Assembly (NCBI RefSeq): GCF_020614375.1
Contig: NZ_CP085327.1
Coordinates: forward strand, 2,778,823 to 2,842,822
Source: Haladaptatus salinisoli
GTDB taxonomy: Archaea; Halobacteriota; Halobacteria; Halobacteriales; Haladaptataceae
Direction of reading: 5' to 3'
Length of the DNA stretch: 64,000 nt
Shown in pieces: positions 9,122-36,995 of this stretch. Under the pieces are notes generated by a model, which was not told where the DNA came from, ran no database searches, and was given only the letters and a program-made list of their open reading frames with translations. The stretch's first letter is position 1. Each line of letters begins with the position of its first letter. A program made the translations under genes and the position numbers.

Positions 9122-10942
9122 TCATTCGACGGTCACGCTCTTCGCCAAGTTTCGCGGCTTGTCGATGGGTCGGTCGAGCAGTTCCGCGGCGTGGTACGAG
9201 AGTAACTGGAGTTGGACGTTGGCAAGGACGCCCGCGGCGTCGGGGTGGGTGTCCGGAATCGTCAGGACGTCGTCGGCGTACTGGGCGGCCGCTTCGTTCT
9301 CGTCGCTCGCCACCGCGACGACCGGCGCACCGCGGGCCTCCACTTCCTTGACGTTGCTCAACGTCTTCTCGTCGTTGCGACCGTCGAACACGGCGAACAC
9401 CGGGGTCGCGGGGGTTACCAGCGCCAGCGGACCGTGTTTCAGCTCGCCCGCCGCGAAGCCCTCGGCGTGCTCGTAGGATATCTCCTTGAACTTGAGCGCG
9501 CCCTCCAGCGCGACCGGGAAGGCCGAGCCGCGACCGATGAAGAAGTACGCTTCGCTGTCGCCGTAGCGTTTGGCGATTCGGTGGGCCTTCGTGTAGTCCA
9601 GTATCTGCTGGACGTGATCCGGAAGGTCGGAGAGGGCGGCCAGCACCGACTCGGCGTCGTCGCTCCTGCGGTCGGTCGCGTCCCGGACGACTCGCTCGCC
9701 GAGCAGGGAGAGCGAGACGACCTGCGAGGAGAACGTCTTGGTGGCGGCGACGCCGATTTCGGGCCCGGCCCGGATGAACAGCGCGTCGTCGCACTCCCTC
9801 GCCGCGGTCGAACCGACGACGTTCGTCACCGCGAGCGTCCGCGCTCCGGCGGCGTTCGCCCGTCTGAGGGCAGAGAGCGTGTCCGCCGTCTCGCCGCTCT
9901 GCGTGACGCCGACGACGAGCGTGCCGTCGTCGACCGGCGGCGGCGACACCGCGTACTCGCTCGCGAGGAACGTCTGCGCGGGAACGCCGCGGCTCCCGAG
10001 GAACTGATTTCCGACGAGTCCGGCGTGGTACGACGTTCCGCAGGCGACGAGTTGCACGCGGCGGACGTCGTCGAACGTCCCCGCCGGGAAATCTTCGAGG
10101 GTGATGTCGCCCGTCACCGGGTCCGCGCGACCGCGAAGCGTCTGGCGGAGGGCGGTCGGCTGTTCGTGGATCTCCTTCAACATGTAGTGGTCGTAGCCCC
10201 CCTTCCCCGCGTCCTCCGGGTTCCAATCGACCGTCTCCGTCTGGCGCTCGACCGTCCGACCGTCGAGTTTCGTTATCTCGTGTCCCTCCGGTCTGACGAC
10301 GACCACGTCGCCGTCGTCGAGATAGATGACCTCGTCGGTGAAATCCAAGAAGGCGGGCACGTCGCTGGCGAGGAAGTACTTGCCGTCTCGAACGCCGACG
10401 ACGAGCGGCGACCCGGAACGCGTCGCGTAAATGGCGTCGCTCTCGTCGACCAGCATCGCCACGGCGTAGCTCCCCGAGAGGCGACGAACCGTCAGGCGGA
10501 AGGCTTCCTCCGGCGTCGCGCCGCCGGAGAGGTGCTCTTCCACCAGGTGCGGGATGACCTCGGTGTCGGTGTCGCTCTCGAACTCGTGTCCGCGCTGGCG
10601 AAGCTCCGTCCGGAGCGATTCGTAGTTCTCGATGATACCGTTGTGAACGACTGCGACTCGCTCCGAACAGTCCGTGTGCGGGTGGGCGTTCTCGTCGGTC
10701 GGCGGCCCGTGCGTGCTCCAACGGGTGTGCCCGATTCCGAGCTCCCCGGCGGGAACTTCGTCCGCGAGCATATCTTTGAGGCGCGAAATCTGTCCTTCGC
10801 GCTTGAACACCGCCGGGCCGCTTCCGTTCTTCACCGCGAGTCCGGCCGAATCGTAACCGCGGTACTCGAGGTTCTCGAGCCCGACGAGCAGCTCTTCGAC
10901 GGCGTCGTCCGTCTCACCGACTCGGGCGATGATGCCACACAT
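9122..10942 (-). CDS. glmS: Glutamine--fructose-6-phosphate aminotransferase (isomerizing)
   Basis: A 606-residue protein of normal family length that makes glucosamine-6-phosphate from fructose-6-phosphate and glutamine. It begins MCGIIARVG, so Cys2 is the N-terminal nucleophile of the class II glutaminase domain (about residues 1-225; GHTRWSTHG and HNGIIENY are present). Two SIS sugar-isomerase domains follow (VACGTSYHAGLV, VGVTQSGETADTL, FIGRGSAFPVALEGALKFKE). The start at 10942 is chosen because Cys2 must be exposed and a GGAGGT Shine-Dalgarno sequence lies about 10 nt upstream; an upstream in-frame ATG at 11026 would bury the nucleophile. It feeds UDP-GlcNAc synthesis for the surrounding glycan genes. 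Confidence 0.95.
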   Translation of the reverse strand: MCGIIARVGETDDAVEELLVGLENLEYRGYDSAGLAVKNGSGPAVFKREGQISRLKDMLADEVPAGELGIGHTRWSTHGPPTDENAHPHTDCSERVAVVHNGIIENYESLRTELRQRGHEFESDTDTEVIPHLVEEHLSGGATPEEAFRLTVRRLSGSYAVAMLVDESDAIYATRSGSPLVVGVRDGKYFLASDVPAFLDFTDEVIYLDDGDVVVVRPEGHEITKLDGRTVERQTETVDWNPEDAGKGGYDHYMLKEIHEQPTALRQTLRGRADPVTGDITLEDFPAGTFDDVRRVQLVACGTSYHAGLVGNQFLGSRGVPAQTFLASEYAVSPPPVDDGTLVVGVTQSGETADTLSALRRANAAGARTLAVTNVVGSTAARECDDALFIRAGPEIGVAATKTFSSQVVSLSLLGERVVRDATDRRSDDAESVLAALSDLPDHVQQILDYTKAHRIAKRYGDSEAYFFIGRGSAFPVALEGALKFKEISYEHAEGFAAGELKHGPLALVTPATPVFAVFDGRNDEKTLSNVKEVEARGAPVVAVASDENEAAAQYADDVLTIPDTHPDAAGVLANVQLQLLSYHAAELLDRPIDKPRNLAKSVTVE

Positions 10943-22970: not shown

Positions 22971-24086
22971 ATGGACGGCGTAACTGAAACCTACTCACGA
23001 GGGCGACGCCTCGTAGTCGAACGACCCTTCCTCGTTGTCGTCGGCTTCTTCGCGGCGCTCTTGGTCGTAGATTTCCTCAACCGCCTGCTGTTCGGTGACC
23101 TACTCGTGTCCAACGTGGGGTCGCTCGTCTGGAGCGGCCTCATGCGAGGACTCGTAATCGGTCTCGCCGGAATCGGGCTTTCGATGACGTACAGCATTCT
23201 GAATTTCGCTAACTTCTCGCACGGCGACTACATCACGAGCGGGGCGTTCACGGGGTGGGCGGTCACGTACCTCGTCGCCGGACTCGGGCAAGGAAATCTC
23301 GCCGGACTGCTGTTAGTCGGCGCCGGCGGAACGGTGTACGCGAGTTCCCTCGGCATCACGATAGCGACGACGCCGATCGCCGTCGTCGCCGGACTGGTGC
23401 TCGCCGGGGCGGGAACGATAGCGCTCGCCCTGTTCATCGACCGAGTCGTCTACCGGCCGATGCGCGACGCGGGCGGTATCACCCTGCTCATCACGAGCGT
23501 CGGCGTCGCGTTCGCGCTCCGGTATCTCATCGTGTTCGTCTTCTCGACGGCGAACCGCGGAACCACGGCGTCGCAGGAGATTCCGACGTGGGACCTCCTG
23601 CTCTGGGACGGAACCGTTCCCGTGACGGCCCACGACCTGACGCTCCTCGTCTCGACGGCGGGGCTGATGCTCGGCGTTCACCTCCTGCTCCAGCGGACGA
23701 AGCTGGGGAAGGCGATGCGCGCGATGTCCGACAACGAAGACCTCGCGCGTATCACGGGGATACCGACCGAGCGCGTCATCCGCTGGACGTGGATAATCGG
23801 CGGCGGGCTAACCGGCGTCGCGGGCTACCTGATGGTGCTCTGGACGGGCACCATCGACTTCCAGTTCGGCTGGCTCCTCCTGCTTCCCATCTTCGCCGCG
23901 GTCATCCTCGGCGGCATCGGCTCGATATACGGCGCGATTCTCGGCGGTCTGGTCATCGGGCTGACGTGGGACCTCGCCATCATCTGGATTCCGGGCGAGT
24001 TCGGCAGGGCCGCCGCGTTCGCCATGATGATCCTCATCCTGCTGTTCAAACCGCAGGGGCTGTTCGCGGGGAGGACGACCGCATGA
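22971..24086 (+). CDS. livH: Branched-chain amino acid ABC transporter permease LivH
   Basis: A 371-residue permease with about eight to nine membrane helices. It shows the LivH pattern: GLAGIGLSMTYSILNFANFS near the first third, then the cytoplasmic coupling loop GKAMRAMSDNEDLARITGI before a helix. The end GGIGSIYGAILGGLVIG leads to a final LFKPQGLF. It is longer than the roughly 300 residues usual for LivH because of an N-terminal extension and an extra helix pair around residues 105-150. Its TGA overlaps the livM ATG. It forms the membrane channel with LivM for amino acids or amide-like substrates. Confidence 0.9.
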   Translation: MDGVTETYSRGRRLVVERPFLVVVGFFAALLVVDFLNRLLFGDLLVSNVGSLVWSGLMRGLVIGLAGIGLSMTYSILNFANFSHGDYITSGAFTGWAVTYLVAGLGQGNLAGLLLVGAGGTVYASSLGITIATTPIAVVAGLVLAGAGTIALALFIDRVVYRPMRDAGGITLLITSVGVAFALRYLIVFVFSTANRGTTASQEIPTWDLLLWDGTVPVTAHDLTLLVSTAGLMLGVHLLLQRTKLGKAMRAMSDNEDLARITGIPTERVIRWTWIIGGGLTGVAGYLMVLWTGTIDFQFGWLLLLPIFAAVILGGIGSIYGAILGGLVIGLTWDLAIIWIPGEFGRAAAFAMMILILLFKPQGLFAGRTTA

Positions 24087-25390
24087 GCGCGAAGATGCGC
24101 GACTTCGAGGTGAACGACACCGTGCTCATCCTCGCCGCGCTCGTCGGAATCTACGCGCTGTACCTCATCGCGGGGTCGGCGCTCGGCTACTCGTTCCGCG
24201 GCCAGTTGAACTCGCTCGCGCGCCTCACGTTCCTCATCGGCGTCTACGGGATGTTGGCGCTCGCGCTGAACCTCCACTGGGGGTACACCGGGCTGTTCAA
24301 CATCGGCATCGCGGGGTTCATGGCGGTCGGCCTCTACACGATGGCCATCGTCTCGAAACCCGCCGCGAGCGCCTCCGCGGGAGCCGCGACCGTCTCCGGC
24401 CTCGGGCTTCCGCTCTGGGTCGGCGTCATCGCCGGGATGCTCGCGGCGGCGCTCCTCGGGTTGCTCGTGGCGCTTCCGGCGCTTCGGTTGCGGGCCGACT
24501 ACCTCGCCATCGTGACCATCGCGATGTCCGAAATCGTCCGGTTCACCGTGATGTCGAACAAGTTCCAGGAGGTCAACGTGTTCGGCAAGAACCTCGGCAC
24601 CGGCGGCGGTCGGGGTCTGCTGTTGAACTACGAGGACCCACTCCAACCGGTGTTCGACAGCGCGCCGTACGGCGCGCTCGAAGACGCGCTGAACCCGCTC
24701 GTCGGGGGCTCCATCGGGCCGGTGCTCGATTCGATCACCTACGCGGTCGTCCTGCTCGGTTTCGTGGCGGCGTTCTACTGGCTCCTGAAGCGAACCGGCG
24801 AGTCGCCCTTCGGTCGGGTGCTCAAAGCCATCCGCGAGGACGAACAGATGGCGAACTCGCTCGGGAAGGACACCGACCGCTTCAAGATCAAATCGTTCAT
24901 GCTCGGCTGCGCGCTGATGGGACTGGCCGGTATCCTCTGGCAACTCCGACAGGGCGCCATCACCCCGACGTCGTTCAGACCGCAGGTGACGTTCTTCGTG
25001 TGGCTGGCGCTCATCATCGGCGGCGCGGGCTCGAACACCGGGAGCGTCCTCGGCGCGGCGGTGTTCGCCGGCCTGCTGTTCCAGGGGCCGCTGTACCTGA
25101 AGAACATCATCAGGCAGGTGTACGACGTCTCCGGAGCGCCGAACACGTTCGCCGACGCGATCGGCCCGCTGTTCGCCGGCCAGATACAGCCGTTCGTCGC
25201 CTACGCAATAAACAACATCAATGCCTTGCAGTTGGTCACCATGGGCGTCGTGCTCATCTGGATAATGCAGCACAGGCCGGAGGGCGTGCTCGGCCACCGC
25301 AAGGAGGAGGCCGCGAGCATAGCGCTCTCGCGGCCGCGCGGCCGCGAGAGCGCGCCGCGAGCCGCGGCGGACGGAGGTGAGCGGGAATGA
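24083..25390 (+). CDS. livM: Branched-chain amino acid ABC transporter permease LivM
   Basis: A 435-residue permease. The start ATG overlaps the livH stop (ATGA). Typical LivM features are LALNLHWGYTGLFNIGIAGF, ALRLRADYLAIVTIAMSEIV, the coupling loop SPFGRVLKAIREDEQMANSL and LIIGGAGSNTGSVLGAAVF. The final 30 residues are a hydrophilic Ser/Arg/Glu tail. This tail is encoded by DNA that contains a perfect 32-bp palindrome (25322-25353) and looks like an addition to the normal C-terminus (HRPEGVLGHRKEE). The stop overlaps the livG ATG. Confidence 0.92.
   Translation: MSAKMRDFEVNDTVLILAALVGIYALYLIAGSALGYSFRGQLNSLARLTFLIGVYGMLALALNLHWGYTGLFNIGIAGFMAVGLYTMAIVSKPAASASAGAATVSGLGLPLWVGVIAGMLAAALLGLLVALPALRLRADYLAIVTIAMSEIVRFTVMSNKFQEVNVFGKNLGTGGGRGLLLNYEDPLQPVFDSAPYGALEDALNPLVGGSIGPVLDSITYAVVLLGFVAAFYWLLKRTGESPFGRVLKAIREDEQMANSLGKDTDRFKIKSFMLGCALMGLAGILWQLRQGAITPTSFRPQVTFFVWLALIIGGAGSNTGSVLGAAVFAGLLFQGPLYLKNIIRQVYDVSGAPNTFADAIGPLFAGQIQPFVAYAINNINALQLVTMGVVLIWIMQHRPEGVLGHRKEEAASIALSRPRGRESAPRAAADGGERE
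25322..25353. repeat. Perfect 32-bp palindrome inside the 3' end of livM
   Basis: GCGCTCTCGCGGCCGC is followed immediately by its exact reverse complement with no spacer. In frame it encodes part of the extra LivM tail. It could form a cruciform in DNA or a stable hairpin in the polycistronic mRNA just before livG. Confidence 0.9.
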
Positions 25391-26238
25391 CCGCCAGCGA
25401 GAGCGAGACGACCCGGACGGAGTCGATCGGCGTCGAAAGCGAGGGGACCGTCTCGGAGACCGACCCGAGCGACACTCCCCTTCGCGTCGATGACCTCCGG
25501 AAGACGTTCGGCGGAATCACCGCGGTGGACGGGGCGACGTTCTCCGTGGAACAGGGGTCGCTCACGGGACTCATCGGTCCGAACGGGGCCGGCAAATCGA
25601 CGACGTTCAACCTCATCACCGGCGTCCACACCCCCGACGGCGGTTCCGTGCGCTTCGACGGCGAAGATATCACGGGGCTGCGTCCCTATCAGATCGCCAA
25701 CCGCGGGCTGGTTCGAACGTTCCAGATCGCCCGCGAACTGTCGGAGATGACGGTGTTGGAGAACATGATGCTCGCGCCGGCCGGCCAGAGCGGCGAGAAA
25801 CTCTGGCGGTCGGTGACCCCCGGCTTCCGGGGCGACGTGCGGCGGGAGGAGGAGGCCGTCCTCGAACGCGCGTGGGAGATGCTGGAGTTCTTCGAGATCG
25901 ACCACCTCGCCGAAGAGTACTCGGGCAACCTCTCCGGCGGCCAGCGAAAACTGCTGGAGATGGCGCGGGCGCTCATGACCGACCCGAAGATGGTGTTGCT
26001 GGACGAACCGCTGGCGGGCGTCAACCCGTCGCTGGAGAAGAAGCTCCTCGCGCACGTCCACGAACTCCGCGAGAACGGCTACACGTTCCTGCTCGTGGAA
26101 CACGACATGGACGTGATAATGAACAACTGCGAGCGCGTCATCGTCATGCACCAGGGCAAAGTGCTCGCGGAGGGACGACCCGAGGCGATTCGCGCGAACG
26201 ACCGGGTCATCGACGCCTACCTGGGGGAGGAGATTTAA
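25387..26238 (+). CDS. livG: Branched-chain amino acid ABC transporter ATP-binding protein LivG
   Basis: A 283-residue ATPase. An acidic N-terminal extension of about 30 residues precedes the domain. Walker A is GPNGAGKSTTFN, the Q-loop region is NRGLVRTFQIARELSEMTV, the ABC signature is NLSGGQRKLLEMARAL, Walker B is MVLLDEPLAGVNP and the H-loop is LLVEHDMDVI. The end AEGRPEAIRANDRVIDAYLG is diagnostic of LivG. The ATG overlaps the livM stop and the TAA shares its last base with the livF ATG, so the operon is tightly coupled. Confidence 0.94.
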   Translation: MTASESETTRTESIGVESEGTVSETDPSDTPLRVDDLRKTFGGITAVDGATFSVEQGSLTGLIGPNGAGKSTTFNLITGVHTPDGGSVRFDGEDITGLRPYQIANRGLVRTFQIARELSEMTVLENMMLAPAGQSGEKLWRSVTPGFRGDVRREEEAVLERAWEMLEFFEIDHLAEEYSGNLSGGQRKLLEMARALMTDPKMVLLDEPLAGVNPSLEKKLLAHVHELRENGYTFLLVEHDMDVIMNNCERVIVMHQGKVLAEGRPEAIRANDRVIDAYLGEEI

Positions 26239-26945
26239 TGGCGCTCCTCGAAATCGACTCCCTCGACGCGGGCTACGGCGACGACCTCCAGATTCTCGAC
26301 GACGTGGACATGAACGTCGAAGAAGGGGAGTACGTCACCATCGTCGGCCCGAACGGGGCGGGGAAATCGACCGTGATGAAATCCGTCTTCGGGCTGACGA
26401 CCTACATGGGCGGGACGGTCACCTACGACGGGGCGGAGATACACGGGAAGAAGCCGGAGGACATCATCCACCTCGGCCTCGGTTACGTCCCGCAGAACGA
26501 CAACGTGTTCGGGATGCTCTCCGTCGAGGAGAACCTGGAGATGGGCGCGTACATCCTCGACGAAGTGCCGGCGGACGCGCTCGCGGAGGTGTACGAACGC
26601 TTCCCGATTCTGGACGAGCGCAGGGACCAGAAGGCGGAGACGATGTCCGGCGGGCAACGGCAGATGCTCGCCATGGGCCGGGCGCTCATGTTGGACCCCG
26701 ACCTGCTGATGTTGGACGAACCCAGCGCGGGCCTCGCGCCCGACCTCGTGGACGAGATGTTCGACAAGGTGGACGAGATAAACGACAGCGGGACGGCCAT
26801 CCTGATGGTCGAACAGAACGCGAAGGAGGCGCTGCGGCGCTGCGACCGCGGCTACGTCCTCGTGCAGGGGCAGAACCGGTTCGTGGACTCCGGCGACGCG
26901 CTGCTGGCCGACGAGGAGGTCAGACAGGAGTTCCTCGGCGGATAG
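26238..26945 (+). CDS. livF: Branched-chain amino acid ABC transporter ATP-binding protein LivF
   Basis: A 235-residue ATPase, normal for LivF. It starts LLEIDSLDAGYGDDLQILDD. Walker A is GPNGAGKSTVMK, then GLGYVPQNDNVFGMLSVEEN (Q-loop), signature MSGGQRQMLAMGRAL, Walker B LLMLDEPSAGLAP and H-loop-type MVEQNAKEALRRCDRG, where Gln replaces His as usual in LivF. The TAATG junction with livG shows coupling. It ends the transporter operon; the substrate-binding proteins are encoded downstream on the opposite strand. Confidence 0.94.
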   Translation: MALLEIDSLDAGYGDDLQILDDVDMNVEEGEYVTIVGPNGAGKSTVMKSVFGLTTYMGGTVTYDGAEIHGKKPEDIIHLGLGYVPQNDNVFGMLSVEENLEMGAYILDEVPADALAEVYERFPILDERRDQKAETMSGGQRQMLAMGRALMLDPDLLMLDEPSAGLAPDLVDEMFDKVDEINDSGTAILMVEQNAKEALRRCDRGYVLVQGQNRFVDSGDALLADEEVRQEFLGG

Positions 26946-26996: not shown

Positions 26997-27884
26997 ATGG
27001 CGCTCGCTCGCTGGGCCGCGGTCGTTCTCGCGGTCGCTGTCGTCTGTTCGGCCACTTCCGCGGTCGACGGCGGGAAACCGCTCGCCACCGACGCCGCGGA
27101 ACCGCCATCGTCCCTCGCCGAACCGATCCGTCTCGACTCCTGCACGACCATCTCCGAACCGGGGCGGTACGTTCTCGCGAGCGATATCGAATCCCGCGCG
27201 GAAACCTGCATCCGAATCGCGGCGGACGACGCGATTCTCGACGGCGCCGGTCGAGCCGTCGACGGCGGTACGGTGCGGGAGAACGCGACCGGTGTTGCGG
27301 TGACGGGCGCGAACGTCACGGTGCGGAACCTCTCGCTCTCCCGGTGGACGTTCGGCATTCGGTACGAGAACGCGCCGGACGGCGTCGTCCGGAACGTGAC
27401 CGTGCGGCGAACCGTCGACGGCGTGACCCTCGCGTCGTCGCCCCGTTCGAGGGTAGATGGAGCGACCGTGACGAGCGGTTTCACGGGCGTTTCGGTCGTC
27501 GAGTCGGACGCGAGCGCCGTGACGGACAGCGTGACGAGTCGTTTGCTCTCCTCCGGCGTCCTGGTCGCCGACTCCCGGCGCGTCGTCGCGTCGAACGTCA
27601 CGGTCGTCCGGAGCGAGACGGGTATCGCGCTCCTCGGCAGTCGTCGGGGGCGGGTGGAGGACGCGGTCGTCCGTTCGACCCGAACGGCCCTCCTGCTCGT
27701 CGACTCGCGCGCCAACTCGGTCGCGAACGTCTCGCTCTCGAATCCGGGCGGGACGGCGACGGTAGCGCTCTCGAACGCCACCGAGAATCGAATCGTCGCT
27801 ACGAACGGTGACTGGACTCTGCTCCGCGAAAGATCGCGCGAAAATCGGGTGACGAACGCGACTACCCGAGCGCCCGGTCGATGA
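26997..27884 (+). CDS. Secreted right-handed parallel beta-helix protein (NosD-like)
   Basis: A 295-residue protein. A Sec-type signal (LARWAAVVLAVAVVCSATSA) leads to a cap region with DSCTTISEPGRYVLASDI and ILDGAGRAVDG. About eight PbH1-like coils of 22-24 residues follow, visible as repeated V/I-x-N/D turns (NVTVRNLSLSRWTFGI, SRVDGATVTSGFTGVSVV, RVVASNVTVVRSETGIALL). It is probably extracellular and binds or processes carbohydrate, as many NosD/pectin-lyase-fold proteins do; no catalytic set is evident. Its last 23 bases overlap the 3' end of the convergent binding-protein gene. Confidence 0.8.
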   Translation: MALARWAAVVLAVAVVCSATSAVDGGKPLATDAAEPPSSLAEPIRLDSCTTISEPGRYVLASDIESRAETCIRIAADDAILDGAGRAVDGGTVRENATGVAVTGANVTVRNLSLSRWTFGIRYENAPDGVVRNVTVRRTVDGVTLASSPRSRVDGATVTSGFTGVSVVESDASAVTDSVTSRLLSSGVLVADSRRVVASNVTVVRSETGIALLGSRRGRVEDAVVRSTRTALLLVDSRANSVANVSLSNPGGTATVALSNATENRIVATNGDWTLLRERSRENRVTNATTRAPGR

Positions 27885-29133
27885 CCGACGTGTACGACGA
27901 TTCGCCGTTGTTGAACGCGATTTGGTTAATGACCCGCCGGTCGTGGTCCTGCCGGAACGCCTGCGAGAACTGATTCGACAGCTGTTGCCCGTAGTCGTTG
28001 TTCACGAACAGCGTCGAGGCGGACCGCGCGCCGATTCGCTCGGCGGCGACCTGCGCCATCACCTCGCCTTGCAGGAGGTCGCTCGGGGCCGTCCGGAAGA
28101 CGTAGTCGTCGTCCTGTAGGCGCGAGACGGTGATCGCGGTGCTCGACGGCGAACAGCCGACGACTTCGTTCGGGATGAACACCTCGGTGCAGACCGGAAT
28201 GTTGTTCCCCGAGGACGCGGGGCCGGAGACGGCGGGGTATCCCGCGTTGACGAGCGCGTTCGCCCCGCTAATCGCCGCTTGTCGAGCGGTTCGAGTGTCT
28301 TCGACCTGCGTTGCGACGGTCAGGTTCAGATCGCTCTCGTTCACCTGCTGAATCGGGATTCTGGAGGCCTGAACCATCGGGCCGCCGACCGACCCGAGAT
28401 CGCCGGTCTGCGGAAGCAGGATGCCGACCCTGACGGTTCGTTCCGTTCCGCCGGGAGCGTCGTTCGCGCTCGGACCACCCGCGTCGCCGGTGAACCGCCG
28501 GGTGTTGACGGTTTCGATTCCGTCCCGCGTCTGCGGCGCGAACTTCCACACGTCGTAGGCCGCGGACGCGGGGCCTCCCCGTCGGTCGAAGTTGGTCGCG
28601 CTGGACGCACCCTGATAGTTGACGTCTCCGCCGTTCGCGGCGGCTTTGACCGCCTCGACGAAGTTCTCCGGTCCGTACTCCCGCCCCGGCGGATTGGCGA
28701 CTCGGCGCATCTGCCGCCGGATGGCCGAACCGGTGTTCTCGCCGGCGGCGGCGTTCGCCAGGACGAGGATGGCGACCGAGTCGTAGGAGTGCGACGTGAA
28801 CACGCCCGGCGATTGGTTGTAGCGGTTTCGGAACAGTCGAACGAACGCCCGTCGGTTCGGACCGGCGGCGGCCGGCGCCGTCCCGGTGACGTTCTGCATG
28901 TCGTTGCCGACCTGCCGTGGCAGGGAGGAGTCCTGTAAGCCGTCCGGCACGAGCACGTCGATGTTTCGGCCGGTCGCGTAGAGGTCGCGGAACAACTGAA
29001 TACCGCTCTGCGGATATCCGATGACGGTGAGCATATCCGGCCCGCCGTCCTGTCGGAGGGTTCCCATCAGCCCCACGGTCGTCGCTCCCCCCACTCCCCG
29101 AAGGTAGTCGCGACGGTCGATTTTTGAACTCAT
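27862..29133 (-). CDS. Substrate-binding protein of ABC importer, circularly permuted, without lipobox
   Basis: A 423-residue periplasmic-binding-protein type I (LivJ-like) homologue. A twin-arginine motif (DRRDYLRG) and a short hydrophobic stretch are followed by no Cys, unlike the lipoprotein paralogue at 29451. The halves are in swapped order. The segment normally C-terminal (TVIGYPQSGIQLFRDLY ... SYDSVAILVLANAAAG ... YDVWKF) comes first. The segment normally N-terminal (VRVGILLPQTGDLGSVGGPM ... GPASSGNNIPVC ... FRTAPSDLLQGEVMAQ ... VNNDYGQQLSNQF) comes last, joined by a Gly/Ser/Asp-rich linker. It presumably delivers substrate to LivHMGF encoded next to it. Confidence 0.85.
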   Translation of the reverse strand: MSSKIDRRDYLRGVGGATTVGLMGTLRQDGGPDMLTVIGYPQSGIQLFRDLYATGRNIDVLVPDGLQDSSLPRQVGNDMQNVTGTAPAAAGPNRRAFVRLFRNRYNQSPGVFTSHSYDSVAILVLANAAAGENTGSAIRRQMRRVANPPGREYGPENFVEAVKAAANGGDVNYQGASSATNFDRRGGPASAAYDVWKFAPQTRDGIETVNTRRFTGDAGGPSANDAPGGTERTVRVGILLPQTGDLGSVGGPMVQASRIPIQQVNESDLNLTVATQVEDTRTARQAAISGANALVNAGYPAVSGPASSGNNIPVCTEVFIPNEVVGCSPSSTAITVSRLQDDDYVFRTAPSDLLQGEVMAQVAAERIGARSASTLFVNNDYGQQLSNQFSQAFRQDHDRRVINQIAFNNGESSYTSVIDRALG

Positions 29134-29450
29134 ACCCGGGGAAATCGTCGCCGTTCTGTAAGAAAAGTCTATTCCAAACTATAGTTATATATTCGAATCG
29201 GTTAATCGCGTCGGCGTCGATACACCAGTCGCCGAAACTGTTGATGTATCCGAAGCATCACGTCGCACGGCGTTACGGCGCGGGCCGCGCGGTGGACGGC
29301 CGGACGCGGCGCGCGACGCGAACCTCTCGTCGTCGGTATCCCTTCAATCGCCAGTATCGTCGCCGGTGGCGCACCCGGCGCGTCGCCGATGGAAACCTCC
29401 CTCGTTTTCGTCCCTTCGCGGAGAAAAACGCGTTCGAACGGCGCTCCGCC
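29134..29450. other. Intergenic stretch between the two binding-protein genes
   Basis: About 320 bases with no gene. An AT-rich TTATATAT (29185-29192) is the likely TATA box of the 27862 gene on the minus strand, giving a leader of about 25 nt. The rest is GC-rich; no terminator-like structure was verified. Confidence 0.45.
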
Positions 29451-30785
29451 CTACTTCGAACTCGTCGCTTTGCCGATGACGGACGTGTACGACGATTCGC
29501 CCTTGTTGAACGAGACCGTCTGTAGGACCTCGCCGCCGTGCGAATCCGTGAAGGCGCTCGCGAACTTGTCCGATAGCTGTTGCCCGTAGCTGTTGTTCAC
29601 GTAGAGCGTGGATGCCGTCTTGCCGCCGAGTCGTTTGGCGGCGACCTGCGCCATCACCTTGCCTTGCAGGAGGTCGCTCGGGGCCGTCCGGAAGACGTAG
29701 TCGTCGTCCTGCAGCTGCGTGACCGTGAGCGCCGTGCTCGACGGCGAACAGCCGACGATGCCCTGTTTCATGTACACCTGCTTGCTCACGGGCAGATTGT
29801 TACCGGACGAAGCCGGTCCGCAGATGGCCGGGTAACCGGCGTTGACGAGCGCGTTCGCACCGGAGAGCGACGCCTGCTTCGCGGTCTGGGTGTCCTCCAC
29901 TTGGGAGTCCACCGTCACGTTGATTCCCGCGTCGTTCACCTGTTTGATGGGGAGTTTCCCCGCCTGAATCATCGCGCTTCCGGTGGAGCCGAGGTCGCCG
30001 GTCTGCGGAAGCAGGATGCCGACCTTGATGGTTCGTCCCGTCCCGCCGGGCGAACTATCGGCCATGCTCCCGCCGGAACTGCCCTCGAAGTTGATCGTAT
30101 CGACGGTCTTTATCCCGCCGTCCGCGCTCTTGTCGAACTTCCACACGTCGTAAGCCGCGGACGCCGGGTCGCCCTTCTTGTCGAAGTCGACGACGCTCGA
30201 CGCGCCCTGATAGTTGACGTCTTCGCCGCGCGCGGCGGCTTTGACCGCCTCGACGAAGTTCTCCGGTCCGTACTTCTGCCCGCCGGGGTTGGCGACCCGG
30301 CGCATCTGGTCGCGAATCTTCGTCCCGTCGTTCGCACCGGCCGCCGCGTTGGCGAGGATGAGGATGGCCACCGCGTCGTAGGTGTGTGAGGTGAACACGC
30401 CGGGTTCCTCGCCGTACTCGTCTTTGAACATCTGCGTGAACGCCTCCTGGTTCGGGCCGGACGCCGCCGGGGCCGTCCCGGTGACGTTCTTCATATCGTT
30501 TCCGACGTCCTTCGGCAGATTCGCGTCGCGCAACCCGTCGGGAACGATAATCTCGTGGTTCCCGTCGGTGCTCCCGTAGTAGTCCCGAAAGAGCTGCGTA
30601 CCGGTCTGCGGGTAGCCGATGACGTTGATAACGTCCGGTCCGCCGCTCCCGCCCTTGTCGCCGTTACCGTCGCCGTTGCCGTTACCGTTTCCGGCGCCGC
30701 CACCGCCGATACAGCCGGCGAGACCTGCGATTCCGGTCGCTCCGAGTCCCTTCAGTACGTCACGTCGGTCGATATCATATCCCAT
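29451..30785 (-). CDS. Substrate-binding lipoprotein of ABC importer, circularly permuted
   Basis: A 444-residue paralogue of the 27862 product. The Tat/lipobox signal is DRRDVLKGLGATGIAGLAGC (lipidated Cys at about 25), then a Gly/Asn/Asp linker. The order is INVIGYPQTGTQLFRDYY, HTYDAVAILILANAAAG and YDVWKF in the first half, a Ser/Gly linker at about 220-240, then IKVGILLPQTGDLGSTGSAM, GPASSGNNLPVSK, FRTAPSDLLQGKVMAQVA and LYVNNSYGQQLSDKF. In LivJ-type proteins the second set normally precedes the first. ATG 30785 is preferred over GTG 30791 because of the TATA spacing. Confidence 0.88.
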   Translation of the reverse strand: MGYDIDRRDVLKGLGATGIAGLAGCIGGGGAGNGNGNGDGNGDKGGSGGPDVINVIGYPQTGTQLFRDYYGSTDGNHEIIVPDGLRDANLPKDVGNDMKNVTGTAPAASGPNQEAFTQMFKDEYGEEPGVFTSHTYDAVAILILANAAAGANDGTKIRDQMRRVANPGGQKYGPENFVEAVKAAARGEDVNYQGASSVVDFDKKGDPASAAYDVWKFDKSADGGIKTVDTINFEGSSGGSMADSSPGGTGRTIKVGILLPQTGDLGSTGSAMIQAGKLPIKQVNDAGINVTVDSQVEDTQTAKQASLSGANALVNAGYPAICGPASSGNNLPVSKQVYMKQGIVGCSPSSTALTVTQLQDDDYVFRTAPSDLLQGKVMAQVAAKRLGGKTASTLYVNNSYGQQLSDKFASAFTDSHGGEVLQTVSFNKGESSYTSVIGKATSSK

Positions 30786-30813
30786 GGACACGGATGGGTA
30801 TCGACCGAGTGAC

Positions 30814-35606: not shown

Positions 35607-36995
35607 TTACCGCGACTCCACCGATTCGACGGGACGTGCGCGCGTCGTTTCGTCCACGTAGCAGACGCCGTCGAAGGCCTCGGCGTAGACGTACTCGGTG
35701 AGGTACTCCTCGGGATTCTCGGGGTCGTACGTCGCCCCGACGGAGAAGTGACGTTGGGGGTCGGCGAGCCACTCCGCCGCCCTGTCGTCCTCCATCGCCG
35801 ACTCGATGTCCACGATGGCGAGCGGATGACCGAGGTCGGCCAGGGTCGCATCGATGGTGTCGGGCAACGGCGACTCGACGGTCCGCTCTCGGAGCGAGTA
35901 CGCCGGTTCGTCGCCCTCGGCGTCCGGGACTTCGCTGATCGCCTGGAAGGAGCCGCGACCGAACGAGAAGCCGAGCGCGTAGTAGTCGTCCCCGTGACGC
36001 GCGGCGAGGTGCCCCCCGAGCGAGGTCGCGGACACGCCGGTCTTCCGCACCGTCTGCTCGACGCGATTGAGGTGGGCGTCGTGGGCCCAGATGACCATGC
36101 GGTCGGCGTTCTCGTGCGCCAGAATCCAGTCGACGTTGTCCGCCATCGCGCGGTCGCGGATGCGAAGGCATCGTTCCGTGGCGGTGTCCTCGTCGACCGT
36201 ACCTTCCTGACGGTCGTGCACAGCGCGTTTGTGCTCGCAGGCCTGCTCGACGATGCGGACGTGCTGAAGCGCCAGTTCCCACGCCGATTCGGAACGCCGT
36301 TCGACGTAGAATTCCCGGTTCTCGTGCAGGCGGTCTCTGAGCTTCGGAATCACGCGCTCGGCCGCCTCGAAATGAGCCTTCCGGGCTTCGTCCTGATGGG
36401 GTGGGGTTCCCTCGTCGTCGGCCGCGTTCAAATCGTCGCGAACCGTCGAGAGGTACTCGGCGTCCGCGCTCTCGAAGAATTCGACGAGTTCGTCGACCGC
36501 ACCGTGACTGTACTGCGCGTCGAAGCCGTAGAACCGGACGCGGTCGTCCACGGGACGGTCGGCGTTGAACGACCGGAGCCAGTCGACCATCTCCAGGATC
36601 GAATCGACGTTCCACGTCCAGAAGTAGATACCGTCGAGGGCGCTGCGGGGATCGCCTTCTCCGTAGACCACGTAATCGTCGAGCGCCAGCGTTTCCGAGA
36701 AGTTCGCTTCGAGTCCGAACACCCGGACGTCGTGTTCGGTGACGAGGTATCGGAGGAGGCGATGTTTCAGCCGGAAGAACTCGCGGGTTCCGTGGGTGGC
36801 CTCCCCGAGACCGACGATGCGGTCGTCCGCGAGGACGTCGGAGAGCGGAGCGAGGTCGTCGAAATCGGCCGTCGGGTCGACCGCGTCGAGCGGAATCGCG
36901 TGGTCGTCGAGGGCGTCGACGACGGTTCGGTCTATCGGGTTCGTTTTTCGTCTCGTGTCCGTGCTGTCGTCCGTCGATGATGCGTCGTTCGTCAT
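35607..36995 (-). CDS. Erythromycin esterase family protein
   Basis: A 462-residue protein. The family core is clear: VGLGEATHGTREFFRLKHRL with the catalytic Glu-His motif near residue 60, VFGLEANFSETLALDDYV, the central DAQYSHGAVDELVEFF and VIWAHDAHLNRVEQ with the second His. A long helical middle fits the family. Members hydrolyse macrolide lactones or act on unknown cellular esters. In archaea, which lack macrolide-sensitive ribosomes of the bacterial type, the natural substrate is unclear. No signal peptide is seen. The gene stands alone. Confidence 0.88.
   Translation of the reverse strand: MTNDASSTDDSTDTRRKTNPIDRTVVDALDDHAIPLDAVDPTADFDDLAPLSDVLADDRIVGLGEATHGTREFFRLKHRLLRYLVTEHDVRVFGLEANFSETLALDDYVVYGEGDPRSALDGIYFWTWNVDSILEMVDWLRSFNADRPVDDRVRFYGFDAQYSHGAVDELVEFFESADAEYLSTVRDDLNAADDEGTPPHQDEARKAHFEAAERVIPKLRDRLHENREFYVERRSESAWELALQHVRIVEQACEHKRAVHDRQEGTVDEDTATERCLRIRDRAMADNVDWILAHENADRMVIWAHDAHLNRVEQTVRKTGVSATSLGGHLAARHGDDYYALGFSFGRGSFQAISEVPDAEGDEPAYSLRERTVESPLPDTIDATLADLGHPLAIVDIESAMEDDRAAEWLADPQRHFSVGATYDPENPEEYLTEYVYAEAFDGVCYVDETTRARPVESVESR

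Follow-up and report, generated by a model that had tools for sequence, protein, structure and literature searches.

Where circular permutation is found in nature, it is usually an old event that separates two distantly related proteins. Among type I substrate-binding proteins, the closest described case is Tp0684 (TpMglB-2) of Treponema pallidum, a permuted protein placed in "Type Ic" or "Cluster Bc". Its authors showed the bilobed fold and ligand binding, and described how the first three strands of the N-lobe have moved to the C-terminus and how a fourth hinge crossing arose (PMC4990184). Multiple chain orders are also described, in a review, for DNA methyltransferases and transhydrogenases, together with duplication and fission/fusion models, a duplication-fusion-trimming model among them (PMC3320104). 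Here we describe a 64,000-nucleotide stretch of the Haladaptatus salinisoli genome (contig NZ_CP085327.1, positions 2,778,823 to 2,842,822; hereafter the window, from whose first nucleotide coordinates are counted), in which two adjacent genes, P0002 and P0001, stand beside livHMGF transporter genes and encode LivJ-type binding proteins with the two halves of the chain in swapped order. The comparisons below make it likely that this permuted order arose from canonical proteins on no fewer than three separate occasions, always through the same loop, and that one lineage then rotated again and re-sealed its first cut.

An original prediction on this stretch held that both proteins carry the LivJ order reversed, and the comparisons made here confirmed it. 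The Peripla_BP_6 profile matched the window proteins with 93.1 and 115.7 bits (curated cut-off 31.7), hitting each in two stretches. In a genome-level profile search these stretches corresponded to profile positions 189-312 followed by 1-190 in P0002, and 187-311 followed by 1-186 in P0001. The canonical order, with the N-terminal half of the protein matching the N-terminal lobe, was thus seen in neither: the profile places the back block (about 187-312) ahead of the front block (1-190) in both. Ten genes in the source genome match Peripla_BP_6 at E 1e-5, and the other eight are all in canonical order. When a profile of 46 permuted proteins was aligned to 3td9_A, it fell into two complementary pieces with two residues between them on the 3td9_A chain, the later stretch of the permuted chain (profile positions 243-434) landing on residues 15-202 and the earlier one (positions 40-161) on residues 205-329. 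Elsewhere in the source genome, another livHMGF locus (L057) includes a paralogue in canonical order (G000:C3:406708-407973). In blastp, P0002 aligned to this paralogue as two swapped pieces with 51% and 44% identity, and to the paralogue doubled head to tail as one piece of 396 columns (47.7% identity, E 4e-125). At the level of sequence, these results confirm the window proteins as circularly permuted type I ABC substrate-binding proteins, built of a signal peptide, the back block, a short linker and the front block.

P0002, a predicted Tat (twin-arginine) lipoprotein of 446 residues, was delimited from its open reading frame (ORF), the profiles and the paralogue alignment at 29451-30791 on the minus strand; its start codon is GTG, and an alternative in-frame ATG lies at 30785. 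The signal peptide with its RR motif (30714-30791) and the LAGC lipobox, whose Cys27 is at 30711-30713, were placed by counting residues; the TAT_signal score is under its cut-off, and that of TIGR01409 is slightly over its own. A tether of 25 residues, rich in Gly, Asn and Asp, leads to the back block (residues 53-240, 30072-30635), which is the canonical C-terminal part and covers about 189-312 of Peripla_BP_6. The linker GGSMADSSPGGT (30036-30071) runs from the old C-terminus to the old N-terminus, and the front block (residues 253-446, 29454-30035), the canonical N-terminal part, covers positions 1-190. P0001 (27862-29133, minus strand, 423 residues), which is 65-66% identical to P0002, has the same layout, with a back block at residues 33-218 (28480-29037, boundaries counted by hand), the linker GGPSANDAPGGT (28444-28479) and a front block at residues 231-423 (27865-28443). 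P0002 has both the twin arginine and the lipobox cysteine expected of a Tat lipoprotein; P0001 has the twin arginine only.

Both genes are convergent with livHMGF (22971-26945, plus strand), which comprises a LivH-like permease (BPD_transp_2, 22971-24086), a LivM-like permease (BPD_transp_2, 24083-25390), a LivG-like ATPase (ABC_tran and BCA_ABC_TP_C, 25387-26238) and a LivF-like ATPase (ABC_tran, 26235-26945). Two permeases and two ABC ATPases therefore adjoin the binding-protein genes, which is the gene context of a HAAT importer. A gene for a NosD/right-handed beta-helix protein (26997-27884, plus strand) lies between livF and the binding-protein genes, and its 3' end overlaps that of P0001.

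Tp0684 and the window proteins are alike in being natural circular permutations of type I binding proteins, the latter as judged by sequence, and Tp0684 shares a membrane tether with P0002, where it is predicted. They differ in that Tp0684 belongs to the sugar-binding MglB family and the window proteins are LivJ/HAAT-like and cut in a different loop. The cut described for Type Ic also differs from ours in what was moved, since in the window proteins a front block of 186-190 profile positions follows the back block, and a third order described below moved just 41-42 residues. Unlike the situation described for Tp0684, canonical relatives persist in haloarchaea at loci of this kind, and the order appears to have changed several times. 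Canonical LivJ/HAAT proteins (Peripla_BP_6; for example 3td9 and 4gnr) have the same two blocks and motifs, and in haloarchaea they too are found beside livHMGF; what sets the window proteins apart is the block order, the place of the chain ends and the linker. The methyltransferases and transhydrogenases of that review are enzymes, and in the transhydrogenases whole domains are rearranged, whereas here the same loop of one binding-protein gene seems to have been cut in separate lineages and the gene then cut again. Among the leading titles of the open literature we found neither a permuted LivJ-type or haloarchaeal binding protein, Tp0684 being the sole natural case, nor repeated permutation within one binding-protein family.

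The swapped order is not confined to the window. Full-length permuted matches were found in 15 of 28 genomes of the family, and all nine genomes of the source genus carry two permuted copies each. The argument that a diverged pair of paralogues excludes an assembly error holds. Across the genus (36 pairs per copy), copies 1 and 2 had median ratios of nonsynonymous to synonymous substitutions (dN/dS) of 0.14 and 0.15, respectively. Because the swapped order occurs in many genomes and is under purifying selection, it is neither a chance product nor an assembly error. At the level of the order, the best match was below 1e-100 in 158 of 392 sampled genomes; two genomes, G169 and G309, gave intermediate values, and the remainder gave 1e-66 or weaker. 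Both blocks were covered in one piece in the matches listed below 1e-100, with the exception of one cut copy. Ten plasmid records covered at least 80% of the query, each as two pieces. Outside the order, 26 of 294 genomes in a sample of the phylum matched, and among the matches listed no single stretch spanned both blocks. A permuted query found 303 loci; the best 80 of these are the ones to which we could attach names, and all contain a permuted gene, as expected from that selection. They include Haladaptatus, Halorubrum, Haloferax (nine loci), Halobellus, Haloquadratum, Natrialba, Natronorubrum and Haloarcula; in four of the 80, all Haladaptatus, two permuted genes lie inside the fetched stretch.

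We next compared the gene neighborhoods of 89 loci (L057-L065 and L105-L184) selected by hand for genus coverage, 45 permuted and 44 canonical, in each of which the binding-protein gene consists of one front and one back block. The permuted gene was convergent with livHMGF in 42 of 45 loci, all having the four liv genes, so that the proposal to look in haloarchaea for permuted LivJ homologues beside livHMGF was borne out. Canonical genes had the same arrangement in 35 of 44 loci, 31 with all four liv genes. Too few or no liv genes were in reach in three permuted and seven canonical loci, and in two canonical loci liv was on the same strand. This last layout is found at L179 and L180 (g21 genomes G164 and G046), where the canonical binding-protein gene departs from the usual convergent arrangement; G046 has, elsewhere in its genome, a permuted gene as well (L138, of the group called D below).

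We then turned to binding-protein phylogeny. A quick tree of 113 proteins (54 permuted and 59 canonical), with each block aligned separately and most permuted genes of L001-L056 left out, divided the permuted form into four groups: A, which includes the window proteins, B (L130, L131, L065, L139 and L132), C (L135 and L064) and D (L134, L133, L138 and L063). A careful tree was limited to 81 rows (38 permuted and 43 canonical) after 32 were dropped: near copies, a number of close relatives, three rows from distant outgroups and a single long branch. It required four changes of order, and a single permuted clade appeared in none of 200 bootstraps. The approximately unbiased (AU) test rejected one permuted clade (p 0.0067) and a joint A+B clade (p 0.011). 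The front block alone and the back block alone each gave four changes as well, of which well-supported branches force just two and one, respectively. The transporter genes offered a second set of proteins. A LivHMGF tree of 79 of the 89 loci, the ten with too few or no liv genes being left out, gave four changes, and a careful LivHMGF tree of 41 chosen loci gave five, again with one permuted clade in none of 200 bootstraps. Here the AU test placed one permuted clade far below the 0.05 level, which is all that the nominal p of 1.7e-74 should be taken to mean, and rejected A+B (p 2.8e-6), A+C (p 8.9e-23) and A+D (p 5.0e-8), but not C+D (p 0.11) or A alone (p 0.47). In both the binding-protein and the LivHMGF trees, group B adjoins the canonical L166.

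The linkers divide along similar lines. We compared at most 12 linkers per group and 40 pairs. Within-group likeness was high (median z 13.4 for A, 15.1 for B and 14.1 for D), and the two C linkers gave 3.5; between A, B and D the linkers are unrelated (median z -0.2 to 0.8), and C and D linkers are weakly alike (median z 1.8, best 4.6). The simplest reading of the trees and linkers together is that the permuted order had at least three origins, A, B and C/D, of which C is the least sure.

Of the two intermediate matches, that in G309 (L303:8396-9841, minus strand) is a gene convergent with livHMGF that has a third block order: after signal and tether come the front block, starting at its second strand, then SGDP, the back block, an A-type linker and, at the end, the first 41-42 residues of the front block. 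It was the sole full-length third-order match among those listed for the 392 genomes. In 20 genomes of its genus (g29), which also holds genes with A-type linkers (G335, G075 and G297), genes with B-type linkers (G157, G067 and G089) and genes in canonical order (e.g. G243, G258 and G288), we found two further examples, in G637 (L307, 98% identical) and G641 (L308, 90%). Both are full length and free of stops, so an assembly error does not explain the third order. When the blocks of all three proteins were returned to the canonical arrangement, the proteins formed one group inside clade A (99/96 support), which indicates that a gene already permuted underwent another rotation in which its old cut was closed; to judge from the alignment, the second cut is near the start of the front block of the already permuted gene. 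The other match, in G169 (L304:7067-8170 and 9551-9871), is a permuted gene, with a B-type linker, interrupted by about 1.4 kb of other sequence that may be a mobile element; we rejected it as a permutation intermediate.

The cut itself is the same throughout. In canonical proteins the seam reads SSYTSxLxxALxxDP-DxLxVIGYPxSG, the segment that ends in SSYTSxLxxAL being presumably a helix and the one that starts with PDxLxVIGYP a strand, as we take it from LivJ structures. Permuted proteins end in SSYTS...AL plus a few residues (SYSSQW... in group B), and their mature chains, after signal and tether, start with P-D and then the same strand. This seam is shared by the members shown from all four permuted groups, and almost nothing has been lost or duplicated there. 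The linker had been predicted to be a flexible join of the old C-terminus to the old N-terminus. The join stands, but the linker is not simply flexible: within its ADSxPGG motif, several residues are invariant or nearly so in the aligned clade A proteins, a degree of conservation that seems to exceed what a plain flexible spacer would need. Some canonical relatives (L057:7706-8974 and L146) end in a Gly-rich tail (GGGGGGQG and similar), which could be a remnant of an earlier linker or just low-complexity sequence.

Could a single permutation in the haloarchaeal ancestor of the family account for these patterns? It would have to be followed by many returns to canonical order, or the order would have to have spread by gene conversion between co-resident copies. 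The identical cut in all groups is what a single event would leave, the third-order gene shows that cuts can be re-sealed, and some genomes (e.g. G000) do carry canonical and permuted forms together. Several further observations weigh against repeated independent permutation as we propose it. The AU test on the binding proteins alone does not reject A+C (p 0.086) or A+D (p 0.059). Between A and C, linker likeness is weak (median z 1.9, best 4.0) and a DSIPG motif is shared, so C may owe its order to an exchange with A. Because the group labels were assigned with the first tree in view, the AU values for the binding proteins are generous, and the LivHMGF test applies the same labels to other proteins. 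No fused or half-trimmed intermediate of a duplication route was seen among the ORFs of L001-L184 (83 in canonical and 110 in permuted order, the same gene often being counted repeatedly in overlapping loci), where none had more than two blocks over 25 bits; the three one-block entries are a gene split between frames or pieces (L036) and one distant gene present in two loci. Still, by our own reading of the careful trees, a single origin needs about 7-8 restorations against 4-5 gains, the sampled A, B and D linkers are unrelated, and no permuted gene was among the matches listed from the phylum sample outside the order. The position of B beside L166 in both data sets is also hard to reconcile with it, as exchange of the binding-protein gene alone would not explain this. 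We therefore regard a single origin as unlikely, and repeated independent permutation of canonical genes as the better account.

The remaining alternatives concern what the permuted proteins are and why the order recurs. The two lobes of type I proteins are related through an old duplication, and mis-assignment of one lobe as the other through this internal likeness, like an assembly artefact, would mimic a permutation; with each block 44-51% identical to its own counterpart in the paralogue, and the swapped order present in many independent genomes, we rejected both as vanishingly improbable. Their unusual block order might also mean that the permuted proteins have left transport, for instance as decoys or surface proteins, and that their order is free to vary. 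We consider this very improbable, given the conserved place beside livHMGF, the dN/dS of about 0.14, the agreement between binding-protein and LivHMGF trees, and the retention of the motifs of both blocks in most rows ([GA][YF]P.[SD]G in 51 of 54 permuted and 50 of 59 canonical rows, [CM]SP[SA]ST in 47 of 54 and 29 of 59). A more serious proposal is that the moved anchor is adaptive, a tether on the other lobe altering reach or orientation on LivH/LivM and being selected repeatedly. Repeated gain at one site, retention in 158 of 392 genomes and purifying selection are consistent with this, and the authors of Tp0684 suggested anchoring as a possible cause of its permutation (PMC4990184). Of the proteins at the 89 loci, 45/45 permuted and 36/44 canonical ones carry a lipobox, and the median tether is 23 residues in the former and 17.5 in the latter, counts in which related genes are not independent and relatedness is uncorrected; the difference suggests that anchoring may not be indifferent, and so counts against the neutral part of our own account. 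(An earlier lipobox count of 37/46 against 48/59, with tether medians of 21 and 21.5, was dropped, as it included repeats and copies cut at locus ends.) On the other hand, P0001 and its orthologues in the genus (7 of 9 genomes with the signal visible, the source included) keep the order without a lipobox cysteine, as do permuted proteins at L017, L018 and L035, outside the 89-locus set. Selection on the anchor is a possible explanation, though less likely than not.

We think it very likely that P0001 and P0002 are LivJ/HAAT-like binding proteins of the LivHMGF importer with a circularly permuted mature chain, including the folding, function and route set out here. The proteins would be Tat-exported and serve LivHMGF: the permuted chain would fold into the usual two-lobed trap, bind an amino-acid-like ligand and hand it to LivHM. 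The new chain start presumably falls in the second lobe, as we take it from LivJ structures, and P0002 would then be tethered through the opposite end and hang from the other lobe. The original prediction had moved the membrane anchor to another face in both proteins; this may apply to P0002 with its lipobox cysteine but not to P0001, whose twin-arginine signal has none and which would be untethered, so that the tandem pair may supply one anchored and one free binding protein. The mature part was probably duplicated in tandem and fused, after which both ends were trimmed. Independent permutations could recur because a long Gly/Asp-rich tether would make the place of the chain end matter little for docking, and because the cut loop may be among the few sites where the chain can open.

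The pair first noticed in the window is thus one case of a wider phenomenon. Canonical, permuted and re-permuted versions of a gene adjoin the same transporter genes in related organisms, and two independent sets of trees allow their groups to be placed. Questions that have usually been left to engineered proteins, such as which loops can be opened and how old ends are joined, become testable in nature, as do the choice between a duplication and a fission route and the effect of the place of the tether on an ABC importer. If our account is correct, chain order would change readily in these tethered, Tat-exported binding proteins, and the locus would amount to an experiment of nature on fold rotation. 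There is also a practical warning, in that such proteins come out as two fragments in domain tools built around a single order.

Elsewhere in the window, we noted a gene of the erythromycin-esterase family (PF05139) at 35607-36995, here in a haloarchaeon.

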